Both the position numbers and the translations under genes were made by a program. DNA of 64,000 nucleotides from Sandaracinaceae bacterium. GTDB lineage: Bacteria; Myxococcota_A; Polyangia; Polyangiales; Sandaracinaceae. Shown piece after piece: positions 39,661 to 48,874 of this stretch. Below the pieces are notes generated by a model. The model made no database searches, had not been told where the DNA came from, and saw nothing but the letters and a program-made list of their open reading frames with translations. Location: NCBI GenBank assembly GCA_040218145.1, contig JAVJQK010000033.1:186001-250000 (forward strand). Reading direction: 5' to 3'. Numbering within the stretch: the first letter of the stretch is position 1; every line of letters begins with the position of its first letter.

Positions 39661-41325
39661 TCACAAGGCGAGCAGCAGGGCGACGGTGGGGGCCGCCAGG
39701 CAGAGGAAGGTCGGGACGGCCAGGTAGGTCGCGTGGCGGGTGGCGCGGGCGGCGAGGTGGGCGGCGGCGGCGTCGAGGGGGCCGAGCACGAGGCGGGCGT
39801 CGGACGGGAGCGGGGCCGGGCCCTCGCGCAGGCTCGCGGGGCCGAGGCCGCGGAAGCGGGAGAGGAGCGTGAGGGTCGGCGAGGTGACGGGGCCCTCGGG
39901 CGGGTCGCCGACGAGGGGTACGCGCGCGGGGAGGCGGAAGCGGAAGGCGTCGGCCTCGAGCCAGGCGTCGCCGTCGACGTGGAGCGCGCCGCCCGAGACC
40001 TCGAGGGTGGCGCCGTCGCTCAGGCGCGCGGTGGCTTCGAGGCCCGAGAGCACGCCGCGACCGGCCGCGTCCTCGAGGCGCGGGACGTCGAGCGCGCGCG
40101 CCTCGGCGAGCTCGCGGCCGAGCACGAAGAGCAGCCCGAGCGCACCGAGCAACCCCAGCAAGAGGAGACCCGCGCTGAACGCGCCGAGGCGGCCGAAGGT
40201 CCGGTCGAGCAGACCGTCGTCGAGGCGCACGCCGTCGGCGTCGATGAGGGTCAGCGCGCCGGTGGAGGGCGCGTGGCTCGCGACGACCGCGAACGCGCCG
40301 CGGGGCCCGTCCATCACCGCCGCGTCCATCACGGTCACGCGCACCGGGACAAAGCCCATGTCGACGGCGCCCGCGCCGCCCCCGTCGTAGGCCTCGACGT
40401 GCAAGGTGCGGCCGTCGGCGCGCAGGTGGAGAGACGTGCCCGGGACCGAGACGCCGCCGATCGAGGTGACGTCGTGGCTCCAGTGATCTCCGGTCAACGC
40501 GATCTGCAGCTCACCCTCGCCGAGCGATCGCATCGAGGTCGGCGTGAACACGGCCACGACGAGCGCGGCGAGCAGGGCGACGGCGACGGGCAGGAGGAGC
40601 GCCAGCGTGCCGCGCAGCCGCGGGCGGATCTCCGAGCGCGCGGTGACGCCGGCCCGGGTCGCCTCGACGTACCTCGCCGCGACGCGCGCGGTGACGAGGG
40701 GCGTGAGCATGATGGCGAAGGGCGCGGTCAGGAACGCGCCCGCGCCGAGCTGCGCGCCGCGGCCCGCGCCGAAGAGGTAGAGGAGCACGAGGGCCGGCAC
40801 GCCGAGGGTGGCTCCCACCGTGGCGCCGAGCAGCGCGGTGCGGCGCGGGCCGAGCGCGCCCGCGATGGCGAAGGAGCGCCACGGAGCCGCGAGCGCGCGC
40901 GCGCCGTCGGCGGCGCAGAAGGGGGTGAAGAGGAGCGGCGCGGCCACCACGCCGACCGCGAGGCAGAGCGCGAAGCCGGCTCCGTACGCCACGGGCCAGC
41001 CGTGCACGCCCGCGCGCTCGGCCAGGAGCAGCGAGACGCTGACCCCCGCGCCGATGGCGACCACTCCCGCCAGGAGGCCGAGCAGCGGGTAGACGCCGAC
41101 GCCGCGCGACGGCGAGCTGATCTCGAAGGCGTCACCCGCGGCGGCCTTCGCGCCCTCGAGGTGCGTCACGATGAGCGCGCGGAAGCAGAAGGCGAGGACG
41201 GGCAGGCCGACGAGGCACCACACGCTCAGCGCGCCGAAGGGGAGCGCGACGAGGCTGATCGCGAGCGTCCGGCCGCCGTCGTGTCGGAGGACCTGGCTGG
41301 TCCGGATCCGGTCCTCGGAGATCAC
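39661..41325 (-). CDS. Large polytopic membrane protein, RND operon
   Basis: 554 residues from GTG 41325, which overlaps the stop of the RND pump (GTGA). About seven transmembrane segments occur in the first 270 residues (LAISLVALPFGALSVWCLVG, LLGLLAGVVAIGAGVSVSLL, GFALCLAVGVVAAPLLFTPF and others), then a mostly beta, periplasmic-looking region (about 275-370), another helix near 385-405, a second soluble segment, and a final C-terminal helix. I do not recognise a family. Its coupling to the pump suggests an accessory role, but nothing in the sequence shows which. Confidence 0.75.
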   Translation of the reverse strand: MISEDRIRTSQVLRHDGGRTLAISLVALPFGALSVWCLVGLPVLAFCFRALIVTHLEGAKAAAGDAFEISSPSRGVGVYPLLGLLAGVVAIGAGVSVSLLLAERAGVHGWPVAYGAGFALCLAVGVVAAPLLFTPFCAADGARALAAPWRSFAIAGALGPRRTALLGATVGATLGVPALVLLYLFGAGRGAQLGAGAFLTAPFAIMLTPLVTARVAARYVEATRAGVTARSEIRPRLRGTLALLLPVAVALLAALVVAVFTPTSMRSLGEGELQIALTGDHWSHDVTSIGGVSVPGTSLHLRADGRTLHVEAYDGGGAGAVDMGFVPVRVTVMDAAVMDGPRGAFAVVASHAPSTGALTLIDADGVRLDDGLLDRTFGRLGAFSAGLLLLGLLGALGLLFVLGRELAEARALDVPRLEDAAGRGVLSGLEATARLSDGATLEVSGGALHVDGDAWLEADAFRFRLPARVPLVGDPPEGPVTSPTLTLLSRFRGLGPASLREGPAPLPSDARLVLGPLDAAAAHLAARATRHATYLAVPTFLCLAAPTVALLLAL

Positions 41326-44300
41326 GCCGCCTCGCGCAAGGCGGGCTCCGCGCGCTTCGGTCCGCGCCGCTTCCTGAGCCGCTCGCGCGTGCCCGCGACC
41401 ATGACGTAGAGCACGGGGATCACGAAGAGGGTCAGGACGGTGCTGACGATCATGCCGCCGACCACCGCGCGGGCCATGGGGGCCCAGGTCTCGGCCCCGT
41501 CGCCGACGCCGACCGAGAGCGGGAGCATGCCGAGGATGGTGGTCAGCGCGGTCATCAGGATGGGCCTCAGGCGGGTCCGGGCCGCCTCGAGCGCGGCGTC
41601 GACGAGCGACAGGCCGTCTTCCCGCCTGCGCTTGATGACGTCGATGAGCACGATGCCGTTGTTCACGACGACGCCGCCGAGGAGGATCACGCCGACCAGC
41701 GCCGTCACTTGCAACGAGGTGCCCGTGATGGCGAGCGCGAGCACGACGCCGATGATGGCGAGCGGCACGGTGAACATGATGACGAAGGGCTCGAGCAGGG
41801 ACTCGAACTGCGACGCCATCACCATGTAGACGAGGATGAGCGCGGCGAGCAGCGCCATGGCGAGCTTGAAGAAGGCGTCCCGGAGATCCTCGGCCGTGCC
41901 GCCGAGCTCGACGTACATGCCCTCGGGCACGCCCTCGGCGTCGATGCGGTCCTCTACCCGCGAGGTGAGCGTGCCGAGGTCGGTGCCCTCCTCGCGCGAG
42001 ATCTCGACCTTGGCCAGCCGGCGCTGGTTCTCGCGCTCGATGTCGACCGGGCCGAGCTGATCGCCGACCTCCACGAGGCTGCCGAGCGGCACCGTGCCGC
42101 CCGCGGGGAGCGGGATGGGCAGGTACCGAAGCCCGTCCAGGTCACGCCGGCTCTCGGTCGGCATGCGGACCCGGACCGCGAACTCGTCGCCGCCCTCGCG
42201 GTACACGGTGGCGGGGATGCCCTGGTAGTAGGCGGCGACGGTGGAGGCGACGACGCCGGGGGAGACGCCGAGCACGCGCATGCGCTCGCGGTCGTAGCGG
42301 AGCGACAGCTCGGGCGCGCCGTGCAGCATGGAGAAGCGCGCCTCGCGCACGCCCTCGACCTGCTCGAGCTCCCCGCGGAGGCGCTCGCCGAACTCGCGGA
42401 GCTGGTCGAGGTCCTCGCTGAAGAGCTTGACCACGATGTCGCCGCCGCCGCCGCCGAGCGAGAAGCCCGCGATCTCCACCTCGATGCCGGGGATGTCGCG
42501 GAAGCGCTCGGTGAGCTGGGCCTCGATCTCCTGCTGGGTGCGCTCGCGCTCGGTCGGGATGGGCAGCCGCGCGCGCAGGGTGCCCTTGTTCGCGGTGCCG
42601 CCGAAGATCGCGCCGAAGCCCTCCGCGGTGCCGTAGTCGGCGGTCACCACCTCGGCCTCGGGCACGGTGTCGCGAATGGTCGACTCCACCACCCCGACGA
42701 GGTGGCGCATCTCCTCGAGCGCGGTGCCGGGCGCGGCCGTGACCTCCACGCGGATCTCGGAGACGTCCGCGGCCGGCAAGAAGTCCTGCCCCAGCATGGG
42801 CACGAGCGCGAGGCTGGCGCCGAAGGCGAGGAGCGCGATGGCGACCACGCGCTTGCGCCGGGCCAGCGCCCAGGACAGGGCCCGCTCGTAGCGAGGGCCG
42901 AGCCGGTCGAGGCCCACGGTGGCGCGCTCGAGGAAGCGCTCGAAGCGGTTCGGCTCGCGCTCGTCGAGCATGCGCGAGGCCATCAGCGGCACGAGGCTGA
43001 GGGCGACCACGAGCGACGCGAGCAGGGTGATGCAGATGGTCAGCACCATGTCGCGGAAGAGCTCGCCCGCGATGCCCTCCACCAGCAGGATGGGCATGAA
43101 GACGACGACGGTGGTGAGCGTGGAGGCGACGAGCGGCATGCCCATCTCCTTCGCGCCCGCGAGCGCGGCCTCGGCCGCCCCCGCGCCCCGCTCGATGTGC
43201 TGGAACGCCGCCTCCAGGACGACGATGCCGTTGTCGACCAGCATGCCGATGGCGAGCGCGAGCCCGGCCATGGAGATGAGGTTCAGGGTCACGCCCAGCG
43301 CGTCCATCGCGACGAAGGCGACGACGATCGAGGTGGGGATCGCGATGACGGTGATGAGCGAGGTGCGCCAGCTGCGCAGGAACATCAGCAGGACCAGGCC
43401 CGTGAGCAGGAAGGCCTGCCCCATGGTCATGCCGAGGTTGCCGATGGAGCGGAGGATGGGGCGCGACTCGTCGAAGAGCGGGACGAGCTGCACGCCCTCG
43501 GGCAGGCGCTCCTCGATCTCGGGCAGGGCGTCGGCGACGTTGCGCGCCGTCTCGACGGTGTTGGCGTCGGACTGCTTGCGGACCGCGACCATGACCGCGG
43601 CCGCGCCGTCGGCGGTGACGACGTGGGTCTCCTCCTCGAAGGTGTCGACGACCTCGGCCACCTCGCGCAGGCGGATGGGCCGGCCGCCGCGCTGGCCCAC
43701 GATGACGTCGCGGATCTCGTCGACGTTCGTGAAGAGGCTGGTCGGCTGGAGGTTGAGGCGCTGGGTCCCGTCGTCCACCGCGCCCGAGGGCATCACCACG
43801 TTCGCGCCGCGCAGCGCGTCGGCCACGTTGCTCGGCGAGATCCCGTTCGCCTGCAGCCAGCGCGGGTCGAGCCGCACCTGCACCTCGCGGTCGAGCCCAC
43901 CCATGACCTCCGCCGCCGCGACGCCGTCGACGCGGCCGAGGTAGGGCTGCACCTGCTCGGTCGCGATGCGCCGCAGCTGGTGGCCGTCGAGCGGGCCGTC
44001 CAGCGCCATGAACATCACCGGGGCGAGGCTCGGGTCGAAGGCGAAGGTCAGCGGCCGGCTGGCCTCGGCCGGCAAGAAGTCCTGCGCGAACAGCTCGAGG
44101 TTCTTCCGCACCTCGACCTCGGCCGCGTCCATGTTCGTGCCCCAGGTGAACTGGATGATCACGATGCTGGTGCCCTGCCGCGAGGTGCTCTGCACCGTCT
44201 CGACGCCCTCGACGCTGGCCACCGCGCGCTCGATCGGCTCGGTGAGCAGGGTCTCGATGTCCTGCGGGCCCGCGCCGACGTAGGTGGTGACCACCGCGAT

Positions 44301-44510
44301 GACCGGCAGGTCCACTTCGGGCAGGCGGTTGAGCGGCACGCGCGAGAGCGAGAAGAGCCCGAAGCCGACGAGGCAGAGGTAGACCATGGTGGTGGTCACG
44401 CCGCGCCGGATCGAGAAGCCGCTCAGTCCGTCCGCCTCCTGGAGCCAGCGCCGGAAGGCGCGGCGGCGGCCCGTGTCCTCCTCGGACGGCGGATCCAGCT
44501 CGTCGCTCAC
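41322..44510 (-). CDS. RND efflux transporter permease (AcrB/MdtB class)
   Basis: 1062 residues, the normal size for a hydrophobe/amphiphile RND pump. It has FSIRRGVTTTMVYLCLVGFG (helix 1), the pore-domain opening RVPLNRLPEVDLP and GAGPQDIETLLTEPIE, and GLALAIGMLVDNGIVVLEA, which carries the helix 4 proton-relay Asp. The second half repeats the layout (VILLGGVVVNNGIVLIDVIKRR). In position 4 of the second half, Asn replaces part of the acidic motif, as in MdtB/MdtC-like pumps. It is coupled by ATGA to the adaptor gene. The substrate is unknown. Confidence 0.95.
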   Translation of the reverse strand: MSDELDPPSEEDTGRRRAFRRWLQEADGLSGFSIRRGVTTTMVYLCLVGFGLFSLSRVPLNRLPEVDLPVIAVVTTYVGAGPQDIETLLTEPIERAVASVEGVETVQSTSRQGTSIVIIQFTWGTNMDAAEVEVRKNLELFAQDFLPAEASRPLTFAFDPSLAPVMFMALDGPLDGHQLRRIATEQVQPYLGRVDGVAAAEVMGGLDREVQVRLDPRWLQANGISPSNVADALRGANVVMPSGAVDDGTQRLNLQPTSLFTNVDEIRDVIVGQRGGRPIRLREVAEVVDTFEEETHVVTADGAAAVMVAVRKQSDANTVETARNVADALPEIEERLPEGVQLVPLFDESRPILRSIGNLGMTMGQAFLLTGLVLLMFLRSWRTSLITVIAIPTSIVVAFVAMDALGVTLNLISMAGLALAIGMLVDNGIVVLEAAFQHIERGAGAAEAALAGAKEMGMPLVASTLTTVVVFMPILLVEGIAGELFRDMVLTICITLLASLVVALSLVPLMASRMLDEREPNRFERFLERATVGLDRLGPRYERALSWALARRKRVVAIALLAFGASLALVPMLGQDFLPAADVSEIRVEVTAAPGTALEEMRHLVGVVESTIRDTVPEAEVVTADYGTAEGFGAIFGGTANKGTLRARLPIPTERERTQQEIEAQLTERFRDIPGIEVEIAGFSLGGGGGDIVVKLFSEDLDQLREFGERLRGELEQVEGVREARFSMLHGAPELSLRYDRERMRVLGVSPGVVASTVAAYYQGIPATVYREGGDEFAVRVRMPTESRRDLDGLRYLPIPLPAGGTVPLGSLVEVGDQLGPVDIERENQRRLAKVEISREEGTDLGTLTSRVEDRIDAEGVPEGMYVELGGTAEDLRDAFFKLAMALLAALILVYMVMASQFESLLEPFVIMFTVPLAIIGVVLALAITGTSLQVTALVGVILLGGVVVNNGIVLIDVIKRRREDGLSLVDAALEAARTRLRPILMTALTTILGMLPLSVGVGDGAETWAPMARAVVGGMIVSTVLTLFVIPVLYVMVAGTRERLRKRRGPKRAEPALREAA

Positions 44511-45616
44511 GACGCCTCCGCCAGCGGCGCCGCGGACTCCACGCGGATCGGCGCTCCATCTCGCAAGAGGTGCTGCCCCTGGATGACGAGCTCCTCGTCG
44601 CCCTCGAGGCCGCTCTCCACCGCGACCCGGCTCCCGTAGCGGCGGCCGAGCACGATGGCCCGGCGGTGCGCCGTGCCCGCCTCGCGGTCGACGACGAAGA
44701 CGTGCGCCTCACGCTCGGTGTCGGTGCGCGAGCTGAGCACCAGGGCGCGCGAGGGCGCGAGGACCTGGTCGGGGCGCCGTCCGAGCACGATGGAGGCCTC
44801 GGCGACCATTCCGGGGCGCAGCCGTCCGTCGGCGTTGTCGACCTCGACCTCGACGAGCGCGGTCCGGGTCATCGGGTCGATCACGGGGGAGATGCGGGTG
44901 ACGGTGCCCTCGCGGCGCACGTCCGGGAGCGCGGGCGGGACCAGCTCCACGGGCATGCCCTCGCGGATGCGCACGAAGTCCTGCTCGGTCACCCGCAGCT
45001 GCACCTTCAGGGTCTCGGCCTGGACCACGCTGCAGATGGGCAGGCTCGGGGCGACCATGTCTCCCTGCTGCACGCTCAGGAGCGCCACGGTGCCGTCGAT
45101 GGGGGCGCGGACCACGGTGCGCGCGCGCTGCTGCCCCGCGGTGCGCCGCGCGGCCTGGAGCTGGGCGACCTGCGCCTCGCTGGTCCGGAGCTGCGCCTCG
45201 AGCGCCTCGAGCTGGGTGCGCGGCAGGGCGCCCTCCCCCACCAGGCGGCGCACGCGCGACAGGTCGGACGCGAGCTGATCCCGGGCCGCCGAGGCCGCCT
45301 CCGCCGCCGCGCTCGCCTGCTGCACGCCGCTGGCCTGGAGGTCCGAGTCCAGCGTCGCGATGGGATCGCCCGCCGACACCTGGTCGCCCTCCTGCACGTG
45401 CAGGACGCGGATGCGCTCGGGCAGCTGGGCGAGGACCCGGACCTCGCGCACGCCGCGCACGTCGCCGAGCAAGCGGACCCGGTCGATGGCGTCCTCCACG
45501 ACCACGCGCTCGGTCACGACCAGGCGTGGGGGCTCCTCCGGCGGCCCGTCGTCTCCGCCGAAGCGGTCACATCCGAGCAGGAGCAGGAGCGCGAAGAGCG
45601 GTGCGGCGCGTTTCAT
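44507..45616 (-). CDS. RND periplasmic adaptor (membrane fusion) lipoprotein
   Basis: 369 residues. Lipobox FALLLLLGC (Cys 16), a lipoyl/barrel-sandwich domain split by a long coiled hairpin (about 100-165: ASAAAEAASAARDQLASDL, LEALEAQLRTSEAQVAQLQ), then VRAPIDGTVALLSVQQGD and a beta-barrel domain with VTRISPVIDPMTRTALVEVEV and GMVAEASIVL. It bridges the RND pump and an outer-membrane channel. No TolC-family gene is present in this operon, so the outer channel must come from elsewhere. It is the first gene of the three-gene efflux operon. Confidence 0.94.
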   Translation of the reverse strand: MKRAAPLFALLLLLGCDRFGGDDGPPEEPPRLVVTERVVVEDAIDRVRLLGDVRGVREVRVLAQLPERIRVLHVQEGDQVSAGDPIATLDSDLQASGVQQASAAAEAASAARDQLASDLSRVRRLVGEGALPRTQLEALEAQLRTSEAQVAQLQAARRTAGQQRARTVVRAPIDGTVALLSVQQGDMVAPSLPICSVVQAETLKVQLRVTEQDFVRIREGMPVELVPPALPDVRREGTVTRISPVIDPMTRTALVEVEVDNADGRLRPGMVAEASIVLGRRPDQVLAPSRALVLSSRTDTEREAHVFVVDREAGTAHRRAIVLGRRYGSRVAVESGLEGDEELVIQGQHLLRDGAPIRVESAAPLAEAS

Positions 45617-45707: not shown

Positions 45708-46334
45708 TCAGCCCGCGAGGCGCTCGAGGTCCGAGGGGTGGCGCACCACGCGCACCTTCACGCGCGACAGCTGGAGCGCCAGCGAGGAGCTCATGAAGCC
45801 GACCGAAGGCGAGGGATGCACCAGGATGACCTCCTGGAGGCCGATCCGGCTCCTCAGCTGCTTCCCGAGCAGGTCGAAGAGCGCGCGGGTCGGACGCTCG
45901 GCGCCCTCGAAGAGCACCGCGATGCGGGGCGCCGTCTCCACCTTCTTCAGCGCCTGCGCGACCATGGCGGCGTCGGCTCCGAGGGGCAGCGGGACGATGG
46001 CGTAGCGGAGGCGCTCGCCGCTCTTGCGGAGATCCGCCGTGGGCACGCCGGCCTCCTCTCGCTTCATCGCGCGGACCGAGATCCGCGGGAGGCGGAGCTG
46101 GAGGGTCGAGGCGACGAACCCGATCGAGCTGGCGTCGTGCACCAGCGCCAGCTCGCTCAGCCCCGGATGCGCGAGCGCCGCCTTCACGACGGCGTCGGCG
46201 AAGGCCGCGTCCGGTCGGATCGTCGGGCTGATCACGAGCGTGGCGCGGGTGGTCCCGCCGGCCGCACACTTCGAGAACACGCCGTCGAGGTCCGCGAGGT
46301 CCGCGACGTGCACTACCTCTGCATCATGGGGCAA
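45708..46334 (-). CDS. Unknown protein with internal duplication
   Basis: 208 residues if begun at TTG 46334, which overlaps the desulfurase-like gene by 11 bases; GTG 46313 is an alternative. Two halves of about 95 residues resemble each other: LALVHDASSIGFVASTLQLRL (about 60-82) and VILVHPSPSVGFMSSSLALQL (about 165-190), each followed by a basic strand (PRISVRAMK and SRVKVRVVR). Neither half is a family I know. There is no signal or membrane segment. It is the last gene of the V4R/desulfurase operon, 91 bases before the efflux adaptor gene. Confidence 0.65.
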   Translation of the reverse strand: MPHDAEVVHVADLADLDGVFSKCAAGGTTRATLVISPTIRPDAAFADAVVKAALAHPGLSELALVHDASSIGFVASTLQLRLPRISVRAMKREEAGVPTADLRKSGERLRYAIVPLPLGADAAMVAQALKKVETAPRIAVLFEGAERPTRALFDLLGKQLRSRIGLQEVILVHPSPSVGFMSSSLALQLSRVKVRVVRHPSDLERLAG

Positions 46335-47412
46335 CGGACACCTTCTTCATTCCCCCCGGCAGCACCTCGCGCAGGGCGCGCGTCAACGCGTCCAGCTCGA
46401 CCTTGGATGTACCACGACCGCTCGACACGCGCAGCGTCCCTCCGCCCTCCGCCGTGCCGATCGTCGCGTGCGCAGCCGGGGCGCAGTGCAGTCCCGCGCG
46501 GGTGACGATGCCGTAGACCCGGTCGAGCAGCTCCTCCAGGGTGCGCGGCTCCCAGCCGGGGACGCGGACGCTCGCCACGGGCAGCTCGCCGGCGCCGACG
46601 CTGGTCAGCCCCGCCGCGGCGAGCGCGTCGCGGAGGGCCCGACCCGCCTCGCGCCAATCCCAGGCCGGGAGCGAACGCGCGGCGGCGCCCATCGCGAGCA
46701 CGCCGGGCAGGTTCACGGTGCCGCTCTCGAGCCGCGCCGGTAGATCCTCGGGTACGTCGTCGGCCTGCGAGTCGAAGCCGACCCCTCCGCGCACCAGCGG
46801 CTCGAGCCCTCGCGCGGGATCGACGATGAGCGCGCCGATCCCGGGGCTCGCGGCCAGGCCCTTGTGCCCCGAGAACGCGACGGCGTCGGCGCGAGGGAGC
46901 GGCGTCAGGCCCGCCGTCTGCGCGGCGTCGACGATCACCGCCGCGCCGACCGAGCGCGCGCGCTCCAGGATGTCGTCCACCGGCTGCACGAGCCCCGTGA
47001 CGTTCGAGCCGTGCGTGATCACGAGCAGATCGAGGTCGGCCGGCCAGTCGGCGTCGAGGTCGACGCGCCCGTTCGCGTCGCCGGGAAGGGAAAAGAGCGG
47101 CACGCCGCTCGCGACGGCCGGTCGCCGCGCCGCGTTGTGCACGAGCGGGTCGAGCCCGAGGCGGCGCGGGCGCGGACGCCAGCCGAGGATGGCCTGGTTG
47201 AGCCCGAAGGTCGCGCCGGGCGTGAAGCACACGACGCCGCGGCCCCCGAGCGCGGCCACCGCGGCGCGTGCGTCTTCCACCGCGGCGCGCGCCGCCTCCT
47301 GCGGGCCGTGTCGTCCTCGTCCGGGCGACGCCATCTCGAGCGCCATCGCGATGGCCCCCTGGACCGCGGGGCTGCGAGGGATCGAAGTGGCGGCGTGGTC
47401 GAGGTAGATCAT
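46324..47412 (-). CDS. Class V aminotransferase, group-II cysteine desulfurase-like
   Basis: 362 residues. PLP enzyme with the Schiff-base lysine K184 in AFSGHKGLAASPG, the N-terminal MIYLDHAATSIPRSP typical of NifS/SufS-like proteins, and a cofactor Asp in VIVDAAQTAG. C310 in RAGLHCAPAAHATIG sits where SufS-type (group II) desulfurases have their catalytic Cys (RxGHHC). The pattern fits the TIGR01977-like cysteine desulfurase family. It would release sulfur from cysteine as a persulfide on C310. No sufE or scaffold gene is nearby; instead V4R-like proteins precede it. ATGA overlap with the small upstream gene. Confidence 0.85.
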   Translation of the reverse strand: MIYLDHAATSIPRSPAVQGAIAMALEMASPGRGRHGPQEAARAAVEDARAAVAALGGRGVVCFTPGATFGLNQAILGWRPRPRRLGLDPLVHNAARRPAVASGVPLFSLPGDANGRVDLDADWPADLDLLVITHGSNVTGLVQPVDDILERARSVGAAVIVDAAQTAGLTPLPRADAVAFSGHKGLAASPGIGALIVDPARGLEPLVRGGVGFDSQADDVPEDLPARLESGTVNLPGVLAMGAAARSLPAWDWREAGRALRDALAAAGLTSVGAGELPVASVRVPGWEPRTLEELLDRVYGIVTRAGLHCAPAAHATIGTAEGGGTLRVSSGRGTSKVELDALTRALREVLPGGMKKVSVAP

Positions 47413-47696
47413 CCGCCCTCGATCATGCGCTCCGCCGCCGCGAGCGCGAGGGCGAGCGCCTCGTCCCGCACCGCCATGCGCACCGTGAAGCGCACCTTGG
47501 GGTCGTCGACGATGCCGGTGAGCAGGAAGCGGCCCGGCACGTCGAGCCGGAAGAAAGGGCGCGGGAGGTGCGTGAGCACGGTGCGGCTGTCCACGCCCTC
47601 GACCCGGTCGAGGTCCTCGAGACGGACCGGGCGGGGGAGCTCGATCTCCACCACCCGCTCCCCGCCGAGGCAGTCCCTCTGGAGCAGCACCTTCAA
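47409..47696 (-). CDS. Small unknown protein of V4R operon
   Basis: 95 residues starting at TTG 47696, preceded by GAGGG seven bases upstream; a GTG two codons later is possible. The product is alpha/beta in character (VVEIELPRPVRLEDLDRVEG, FFRLDVPGRFLLTGIVDD, VRFTVRMAVRDEALALAL). No family is recognised, and it has a single Cys at residue 9. The stop overlaps the desulfurase-like start (ATGA), and 18 bases separate it from the V4R gene before it, so it is clearly part of the operon. Confidence 0.65.
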   Translation of the reverse strand: MKVLLQRDCLGGERVVEIELPRPVRLEDLDRVEGVDSRTVLTHLPRPFFRLDVPGRFLLTGIVDDPKVRFTVRMAVRDEALALALAAAERMIEGG

Positions 47697-47714
47697 GCCA
47701 GCGCCCTCACACCA

Positions 47715-48365
47715 TCAGGGTCGCCGCGCGACGAGCTCACAGCGCGGCGCGCCGGCCGCGCGGCAAGCGACCTCCTCGGCCACGAAGCGCCCGGAGCCCT
47801 CGAAGAGCTCCGCATAGTACTCCTGGGTCAAGGCGGGGCGGGCCAGGATGTCGCCGTGGTAGATGAGGTTCATGATGCCCGCGACCCCGCCCGTGGCGAG
47901 GAAGCAGACCGGGCCGACCTTCGACTCTCCATGCTCGGCGAGGTAGCCGGTGCTCTCGTAGGTGTTGTCGATCGCCACCCGGAGCTCTTCGTTCGGGGTG
48001 AGCCCCTCGACGTGCCACCGGCCCCAGCCGAGCGCGTTGATCACGCCGACGATGCCCGAGACCCAGTCTTCGCGCCCCTCCAGCATCGGGCCGACGACCG
48101 CCTCCCACTCCTGCGACAGCATGATGCCGCCGAAGGTGTTGAAGGCGCAGACGTGCCCCGCCTCGATCAGCGCCTCGCGCGCCTTCTTCTCGACCTCGGG
48201 CCCCTGCTCGTGCGCCGCGTGGAGGTACGCGTAGGAGACGCGGTTGTAATAGTCCGCGTAGTGCCGCGTCAGGTAGAGGCCGAAGGCCGGGATGAGGCCC
48301 TCTTCGTTGCCGACCAGCGGCAGCCCGCTCACCGCGCTCACGATCGCCCGCTCGTCGACGCTCAT
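47715..48365 (-). CDS. V4R-like domain protein 2
   Basis: 216 residues. The C-terminus keeps the V4R zinc-site spacing E-x2-C-x7-C: E198, C201 and C209 in FVAEEVACRAAGAPRC, with C154 in VCFLATGGVAGIMN as the likely first ligand. V4R domains, named after bacteriochlorophyll 4-vinyl reductase and present in XylR/DmpR sensors, bind small ligands beside a structural zinc. The N-terminal half (RHYADYYNRVSYAYLHAAHE, AFNTFGGIMLSQEWEAVV) is helical. ATG 48365 overlaps the stop of V4R protein 1 (ATGA). The two are distant paralogues. The ligand is unknown. Confidence 0.7.
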   Translation of the reverse strand: MSVDERAIVSAVSGLPLVGNEEGLIPAFGLYLTRHYADYYNRVSYAYLHAAHEQGPEVEKKAREALIEAGHVCAFNTFGGIMLSQEWEAVVGPMLEGREDWVSGIVGVINALGWGRWHVEGLTPNEELRVAIDNTYESTGYLAEHGESKVGPVCFLATGGVAGIMNLIYHGDILARPALTQEYYAELFEGSGRFVAEEVACRAAGAPRCELVARRP

Positions 48366-48874
48366 CGGGACACCTCACTGTTCGTGCGCACGGTGAAGCG
48401 GCAGTCCTCGGCGCCGACCGCGTAGCAGCCCGTCTCGGCCACGGTGACCGAGGCGAGCTCGAGGCCGTGGGCGGCGGCGACCGCGCCCTGGATGAAGCCC
48501 GCCGGGAAGAAGCACGCCGGCGTCTCGCGCGCGCCGTGCACCGCCGTCCAACCCATGGCGTAGTGCGAAGCGCGCACGATCGCCTCACCGCCCTGCGCGC
48601 TCACCCCGGAGAGGTCGAGCACGCCGAAGCCGAGCTCCGAGAACGCGCGCTCCGCGAACGCGGACAGGTCTTCGGCCTGGCTCGCGAGCGCCTTCATCTG
48701 CGCATGCACGACCTCGGCCGCGCCCGCGGTGAGCACGCCGGGGGCCGCGTCGCCCATGCCGTCCTCGATCGCGTGCTGCAGGGCGCAGTTGTAGAAGTGG
48801 CAATGAAACACGAGGCTCTGGCCGCCTGAGAGGACGACCGCGCGCTCGGCGTCGAATTCGATCGGAAGACCCAC
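48362..48874 (-). CDS. V4R-like domain protein 1
   Basis: 170 residues starting at GTG 48874, with GGAGG five bases upstream. The C-terminal part matches V4R spacing: C121 in PACFFPAGFIQGAV, then E147-x2-C150-x7-C158 in ETGCYAVGAEDC. The N-terminus has a separate His/Cys cluster (VFHCHFYNC, H24, C25, H26, C30) that could bind metal or carry persulfide. It is the first gene of the five-gene operon and has its own promoter region facing the SET gene. No DNA-binding or kinase domain is attached, unlike most V4R sensors. Confidence 0.72.
   Translation of the reverse strand: MGLPIEFDAERAVVLSGGQSLVFHCHFYNCALQHAIEDGMGDAAPGVLTAGAAEVVHAQMKALASQAEDLSAFAERAFSELGFGVLDLSGVSAQGGEAIVRASHYAMGWTAVHGARETPACFFPAGFIQGAVAAAHGLELASVTVAETGCYAVGAEDCRFTVRTNSEVSR

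Follow-up and report, generated by a model that had tools for sequence, protein, structure and literature searches.

A conserved myxobacterial operon links two V4R proteins to a cysteine desulfurase-type enzyme

The V4R domain binds small molecules and takes its name from the 4-vinyl reductase BchJ (PMC2253512). V4R proteins as a family, redox-active cysteines within them and cysteine desulfurases are all known already. Here, we describe a five-gene operon that places two V4R proteins beside a desulfurase-type enzyme. The operon is located on the minus strand at positions 45708-48874 of the window, which is the whole 64,000-nucleotide stretch analysed from a Sandaracinaceae bacterium (assembly GCA_040218145.1, contig JAVJQK010000033.1, positions 186,001 to 250,000), and encodes V4R1, V4R2, the small protein P0003, the class-V pyridoxal phosphate (PLP) enzyme P0004 and P0005 (Table 1). 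The coupling of the V4R core to a desulfurase is well supported. Our tentative proposal, held at slightly less than even confidence, is that the operon encodes a V4R sensory complex coupled to a cysteine desulfurase of its own, in which the state of the V4R proteins would control the hand-over of sulfur to Cys9 of P0003.

The closest described systems share parts of this arrangement. The V4R phenol sensors PoxR, MopR and DmpR (PDB 5frz, 5kbe) have the fold of the first domain of a fused relative of the operon proteins (L087, see below), and the C..E-x2-C-x7-C positions of the operon's V4R proteins align with theirs. Unlike these sensors, the operon has neither a sigma-54 ATPase nor a helix-turn-helix domain, pairs two different V4R domains, carries an H-C-x-x-Y-N motif and has separate output proteins. 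The TRAPP Bet3 family and Thor-TRAPPC3 have a homologous fold, and two different members pair, as in Bet3-Trs31/Trs33; in contrast, no longin or GTPase match was found among the five proteins in Pfam and NCBIfam, the similarity is one of fold only, and the context is bacterial signalling. Zinc is bound and ligand cavities are present in both Thor-TRAPPC3 and PoxR (PMC10933270). The MsvR redox regulators of methanogens contain a V4R domain in which three conserved cysteines of like spacing (C206/C232/C240) tune redox-dependent DNA binding (PMC3729527), whereas the operon has no DNA-binding domain. A pair of V4R proteins in one operon is also found in Synechocystis slr0144-slr0152 (Slr0144/Slr0147), which acts in photosystem II stabilisation (PMC13174344); set against the window operon by description only, it differs in its photosynthetic context and has no reported desulfurase. 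Finally, P0004 shares its fold, PLP lysine and catalytic cysteine with the TIGR01977/SufS/SclA and IscS/DndA desulfurases, but scores far under the equivalog cut-offs and lies outside suf, isc, dnd and selenium clusters.

The five open reading frames were found where the first-pass annotation had placed them, and codon usage scores each of them as coding. ATGA overlaps join genes 1 and 2 (48362/48365) and genes 3 and 4 (47409/47412), and an 18-base gap separates genes 2 and 3, all read directly in the sequence. The 11-base overlap claimed for genes 4 and 5 holds with the TTG start at 46334 and disappears with the GTG start at 46313. The GTG start of gene 1 is preceded by GGAGG. The full gene order recurs in a second genome of the same species (G036), in another genus (G045) and in another family (G053), and the operon neighbours are unrelated outside the species. 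Close relatives of P0004 (E<=1e-30) occur in exactly four of the 96 genomes of the order, these three and the window genome, always at the operon; P0005 occurs in two of 282 genomes sampled in the phylum, both of which carry the operon. The conserved gene order and the confinement of close P0004 relatives and P0005 to operon-bearing genomes indicate that the operon is a real and specific unit. V4R2 is more broadly distributed, with 18 of the 96 genomes of the order and 16 of the 282 sampled in the phylum. None of the outcomes that the first-pass annotation gave as refuting came about: the V4R profile matches V4R1 above and V4R2 below its cut-off, the gene order is conserved in related genomes, and C310 of the PLP enzyme is retained.

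P0004 matches Pfam Aminotran_5 (PF00266) with 136 bits and aligns over almost its full length with cysteine desulfurases of known structure in the PDB. Residues H92, D162, K184 (46861-46863) and C310 (46483-46485) are invariant in nine operon-linked desulfurases, the K184 and C310 of the earlier reading among them. By its PF00266 match, PLP lysine, histidine, aspartate and C-terminal catalytic cysteine, P0004 is predicted to be an enzyme of the cysteine desulfurase type. Its best NCBIfam score, 229 bits, is to TIGR01977 (the EF2568 family; curated cut-off 377), followed by 164 bits to the selenocysteine lyase SclA (NF040779; cut-off 525) and 95 bits to SufS (TIGR01979; cut-off 475). Use of selenium is disfavoured, with no SelD over the cut-off in the genome. 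Because the genome has 25 PLP-family matches, one of them very strong in contig 97, P0004 is not its sole enzyme of this kind.

V4R1 scores 33.0 bits against Pfam V4R (PF02830), above the gathering cut-off of 31, and V4R2 matches below it (25.8 bits, E=1.2e-5). The two occur paired in nearly all loci, and in most relatives they are fused into one chain of approximately 400 residues. One such fused relative, L087, rather than the window proteins themselves, was modelled with AlphaFold2 (AF2; predicted local distance difference test, pLDDT, 94.4; predicted template modelling score, pTM, 0.93). The model comprises two V4R/Bet3 folds in one chain. Domain 1 resembles the PoxR/MopR phenol sensors (PoxR Z 16.9, 172 aligned residues, 3.0 A) and domain 2 has its best match in the Bet3-family chain 7kmt_F of TRAPP (Z 10.0, 167 aligned). 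Foldseek returned 14 matches below 1e-3, every one PoxR/MopR.

The best conserved sites of the pair are the H-C-x-x-Y-N motif and H104 of V4R1 and C73 of V4R2. H24, C25, N29 and H104 are each conserved in 17 of 18 V4R1 sequences, and HC..[YFH]N is present in 86 of the 102 proteins picked up by the V4R1 profile; in V4R2, C73 is conserved in 18 of 19 sequences, and S84, E86, W87 and E137 are invariant. The N-terminal H-C-H...C cluster of the earlier description is nearly invariant in its H24-C25-x-x-Y-N29 portion, and its C30 occurs only in the three type-A proteins. The E-x2-C-x7-C spacing is present in both proteins as described (E147/C150/C158 and E198/C201/C209), and an additional cysteine in each (C121, C154) lies close to where PoxR and MopR have their fourth zinc ligand. 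At the level of sequence, the PoxR-type C, E-x2-C-x7-C positions are complete in both window proteins. The zinc triad emphasised by the first-pass annotation is variable among relatives, and for the metal handling that it proposed this motif is the sole support.

P0003 has no Pfam or NCBIfam match, and to that extent it is unrecognised, as had been noted; it is now placed in a new family of small proteins. Iterative hidden Markov model searches collected 53 members, of which 52 lie within two genes of V4R2, against a baseline of 183 of 397 short proteins. The sole non-adjacent member is at L071, where the gene caller missed the V4R gene. Cys9 (codon 47670-47672) is the only invariant column besides the start in 30 rows of the family. 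The AF2 model of P0003 (pLDDT 95.1) consists of two strands, a helix, four strands and a long helix. The TBP fold is nearest (Z 8.8, 88 aligned), a resemblance of the model that carries no functional information, and Foldseek gave no match below 1e-3. All 35 members of a second family, small helical proteins of 55-90 residues, are encoded beside V4R. This family is absent from the window operon, and a six-frame search of type A found nothing better than E 6. Direct profile comparison of the small proteins of type A with those of types C or D failed; they are linked by iterative search only, in steps near E 1e-3, and for that reason the outermost members of both families are less sure.

Desulfurases were recruited to the V4R core three or four times. 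In 10 of 87 dereplicated loci, a class-V PLP enzyme is encoded no more than three genes from the core, and eight of these enzymes are same-strand operon members. The remaining pair (L157, L160) is transcribed divergently, and one of the two has the score of an ordinary housekeeping enzyme, which makes their linkage weak. Outside operons of the window type, a same-strand desulfurase is located next to V4R at L033/L087, L034, L055, L073 and L156. The window type is SufS/TIGR01977-like; L033, L034, L055 and L073 encode IscS/NifS/DndA-like enzymes, and L156 is nearest the latter. On the V4R2 tree, seven changes are required to account for the desulfurase label, and well-supported branches force at least four of them; without the weak divergent pair, about three would probably be left. 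At L033/L087, the small Cys protein and an IscS-type desulfurase form one polypeptide, a hint that is the most direct sign of contact. In the Sericytochromatia locus L055, the V4R pair, a small protein and the IscS-type enzyme are followed by a protein that by eye resembles ferredoxin-NADP reductase (L055:9484-10380). The second V4R locus of the window genome (G000:C33:99296; L032:8897-10651) encodes a fused V4R protein, a small helical protein and a small Cys protein with no desulfurase; its near relatives L156, L033 and L034 do have one.

The core itself extends far beyond these operons. Searching species genomes with the V4R2 profile yielded 135 relatives, of which 80 were kept, in Myxococcota, Pseudomonadota (many of them sulfur oxidisers), Planctomycetota, Acidobacteriota, Bacteroidota, Calditrichota, Cyanobacteriota, Heimdallarchaeota and Halobacteriales. 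In other lineages, histidine kinases (L036, L050, L059, L061, L086, L157), SpoIIE phosphatases (L060, L068, L075) or PAS-STAS proteins (L054, L162) occupy the place held here by the desulfurase or lie next to the core. In Calditrichota loci an ODP-family protein precedes V4R, and the type-D myxobacterial operons contain a ParA-like ATPase and a response-regulator/DUF4388 protein. The general unit is thus not the free-standing V4R pair with a desulfurase that had been suggested, but a much wider core, fused in most lineages, which the small Cys protein usually accompanies and which often faces signalling outputs. As an account of this operon, the suggested sensing module of V4R proteins and a sulfur-mobilising enzyme is upheld by the five-gene order, the repeated linkage across the V4R tree and the fusion of Cys protein and desulfurase, and is qualified by the recurrent add-on character of the desulfurase (10/87 loci).

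The favoured reading is grounded directly in the order and homology of the genes, in conserved residues, in recurrence and in the predicted folds of P0003 and the fused relative; complex formation, sulfur transfer, the direction of control and of sulfur flow, and the ligand are what we infer. V4R1 and V4R2 would form a pseudo-symmetric heterodimer, corresponding to the single fused chain of most relatives, and would sense a small ligand or a redox state through H-C-x-x-Y-N/H104 of V4R1 and C73 of V4R2. In the window branch, a zinc-type C/E/C/C site in each V4R domain may also take part. P0003 would be the constant adaptor of the complex, with Cys9 facing whichever output enzyme is attached. 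P0004 would draw sulfur from cysteine or a similar amino acid and carry it as a C310 persulfide; this sulfur would most likely pass to Cys9 under the control of the V4R state, and P0005 may be an accessory protein particular to this operon type. The desulfurase is favoured as the controlled partner since it occupies the place of signalling enzymes and the core is widespread without it. In MsvR the V4R cysteines work as a redox switch (PMC3729527), and the V4R fold is shared with ligand sensors; both points favour the sensory reading. Several observations weigh against this proposal. P0004 falls under the curated cut-offs of every desulfurase equivalog. No IscU, SufE or TusA was among the listed fold matches of P0003, which does not thereby exclude them. 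In the fetched loci, class-V enzymes near and far from V4R number 10/461 and 2/381, a difference that is not significant alone (Fisher p=0.08). No class-V enzyme lies within three genes in 77 of the 87 core loci, and Cys9 consequently needs a role without a dedicated desulfurase.

Cofactor maturation comes close behind the favoured reading, although it is itself rather unlikely. V4R1, V4R2 and P0003 would hold an iron-sulfur (Fe-S) cluster or a persulfide on their His/Cys set, one cysteine per subunit, and the desulfurase would build it; O2, NO or redox would be sensed and P0005 would signal. The near-invariant cysteine of each core protein (C25, C73, C9), together with H24/H104, suits such a site, as do the origin of the desulfurases in two classes and the ODP-family protein of the Calditrichota loci. 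However, no cluster motif was established, most relatives lack a dedicated desulfurase, and the known sites of V4R relatives, Thor-TRAPPC3 and PoxR, bind zinc, not Fe-S (PMC10933270). We consider it less probable still that the genes are only co-regulated, the desulfurase feeding general targets under the same stress while the V4R core signals elsewhere with no direct contact. The many V4R loci without a desulfurase, the second locus of this genome among them, are consistent with this idea; the gene overlaps, which suggest translational coupling, the constant order amid changing surroundings, the repeated recruitment of desulfurases and the small-Cys-protein/desulfurase fusion argue against it. 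A biosynthetic role, in which the V4R proteins would make or carry a product that contains sulfur or resembles a tetrapyrrole and P0004 would donate the sulfur, is very improbable: V4R is named for BchJ and binds small molecules (PMC2253512), and the C-S-cleaving ATC hydrolase domain is related to it (PMC5847659), but tailoring, transport and tetrapyrrole genes are absent from the conserved unit and core relatives accompany signalling outputs.

It is possible, if doubtful, that V4R1, V4R2 and the small Cys protein, joined in many lineages by the small helical protein, constitute an undescribed ancient sensory complex of bacteria and archaea, Heimdallarchaeota among them. This complex would be a prokaryotic heterodimer of the Bet3 type whose outputs (histidine kinase, SpoIIE, STAS, ParA-type or cysteine desulfurase) can be exchanged, and its window version would be a ligand- or redox-gated desulfurase, a way of controlling sulfur mobilisation not known before. 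In the literature searched, of which coverage was incomplete, no description of the paired core, its two small families or the V4R-desulfurase link was found, nor a paper on V4R with Bet3 and Heimdallarchaeota. If correct, this reading would name a widespread sensory unit whose parts are now called 'hypothetical protein' or 'V4R domain', delimit two families of small proteins through their association with the V4R core, and offer a tractable case, with five coupled genes and single invariant cysteines, of sulfur mobilisation under direct sensory control. Since paired V4R domains occur in both bacteria and Heimdallarchaeota, it would also be relevant to how the Bet3 pair of eukaryotic TRAPP arose.

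Table 1. Genes and sites of the operon, in window positions.
Feature	Coordinates	Strand	Description
Gene 1, V4R1	48362..48874	minus	170 aa, GTG start; PoxR/MopR-like V4R protein
Gene 2, V4R2	47715..48365	minus	216 aa; divergent V4R protein
Gene 3, P0003	47409..47696	minus	95 aa; new family of small V4R-adjacent proteins
Gene 4, P0004	46324..47412	minus	362 aa; class-V PLP enzyme, cysteine desulfurase type
Gene 5, P0005	45708..46334	minus	208 aa from TTG, or 201 aa from GTG 46313
HCHFYN motif of V4R1 (H24-N29)	48788..48805	minus	best conserved polar site of the domain
V4R1 zinc-site ligand positions C121, E147, C150, C158	48401..48514	minus	from alignment to PoxR/MopR
V4R2 zinc-site ligand positions C154, E198, C201, C209	47739..47906	minus	from sequence

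Several loci differ in the company of the core. The type-D operons of Myxococcota (L035, L037-L039, L042, L043) comprise TPR, response-regulator/DUF4388 and ParA-like ATPase genes, two unrecognised proteins of 120-190 aa, the fused V4R protein and the small Cys protein. A roadblock assignment of their 192- and 154-aa proteins, suggested by eye from the motif, was dropped, with no match in Pfam. In Heimdallarchaeota and related metagenome-assembled genomes (L069, L072, L074, L091, L123), V4R1-V4R2 adjoins a protein of about 450 aa (cluster c25), the N-terminus of which looks longin-like by eye with no match in Pfam; if it is longin-like, c25 and the Bet3-like V4R would be a TRAPP-like gene pair. 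Sulfur oxidisers (Thiomargarita, Marithrix, Halothiobacillus, Sedimenticola, Hydrogenophilales) often carry the core (L079-L122, Gammaproteobacteria and relatives), with the small Cys protein upstream, a protein of 125-330 aa between and no desulfurase nearby.

P0005 has no match in Pfam, NCBIfam or PDB, in agreement with its earlier description as unrecognised. It contains two copies of an LVHxSxxxGFxASSLxLRxPR repeat, and its halves align at 98.8% probability. The motif prompted the idea of a STAS/anti-sigma antagonist, for which Pfam and PDB profile searches gave no support. Downstream of the five genes, after 91 bases, resistance-nodulation-division (RND) efflux genes begin (39661-45616), in this species only. 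They were left out of the operon because this adjacency is limited to the same species. The set consists of a membrane fusion protein gene (44507-45616) followed by genes for 1062-aa and 554-aa proteins.

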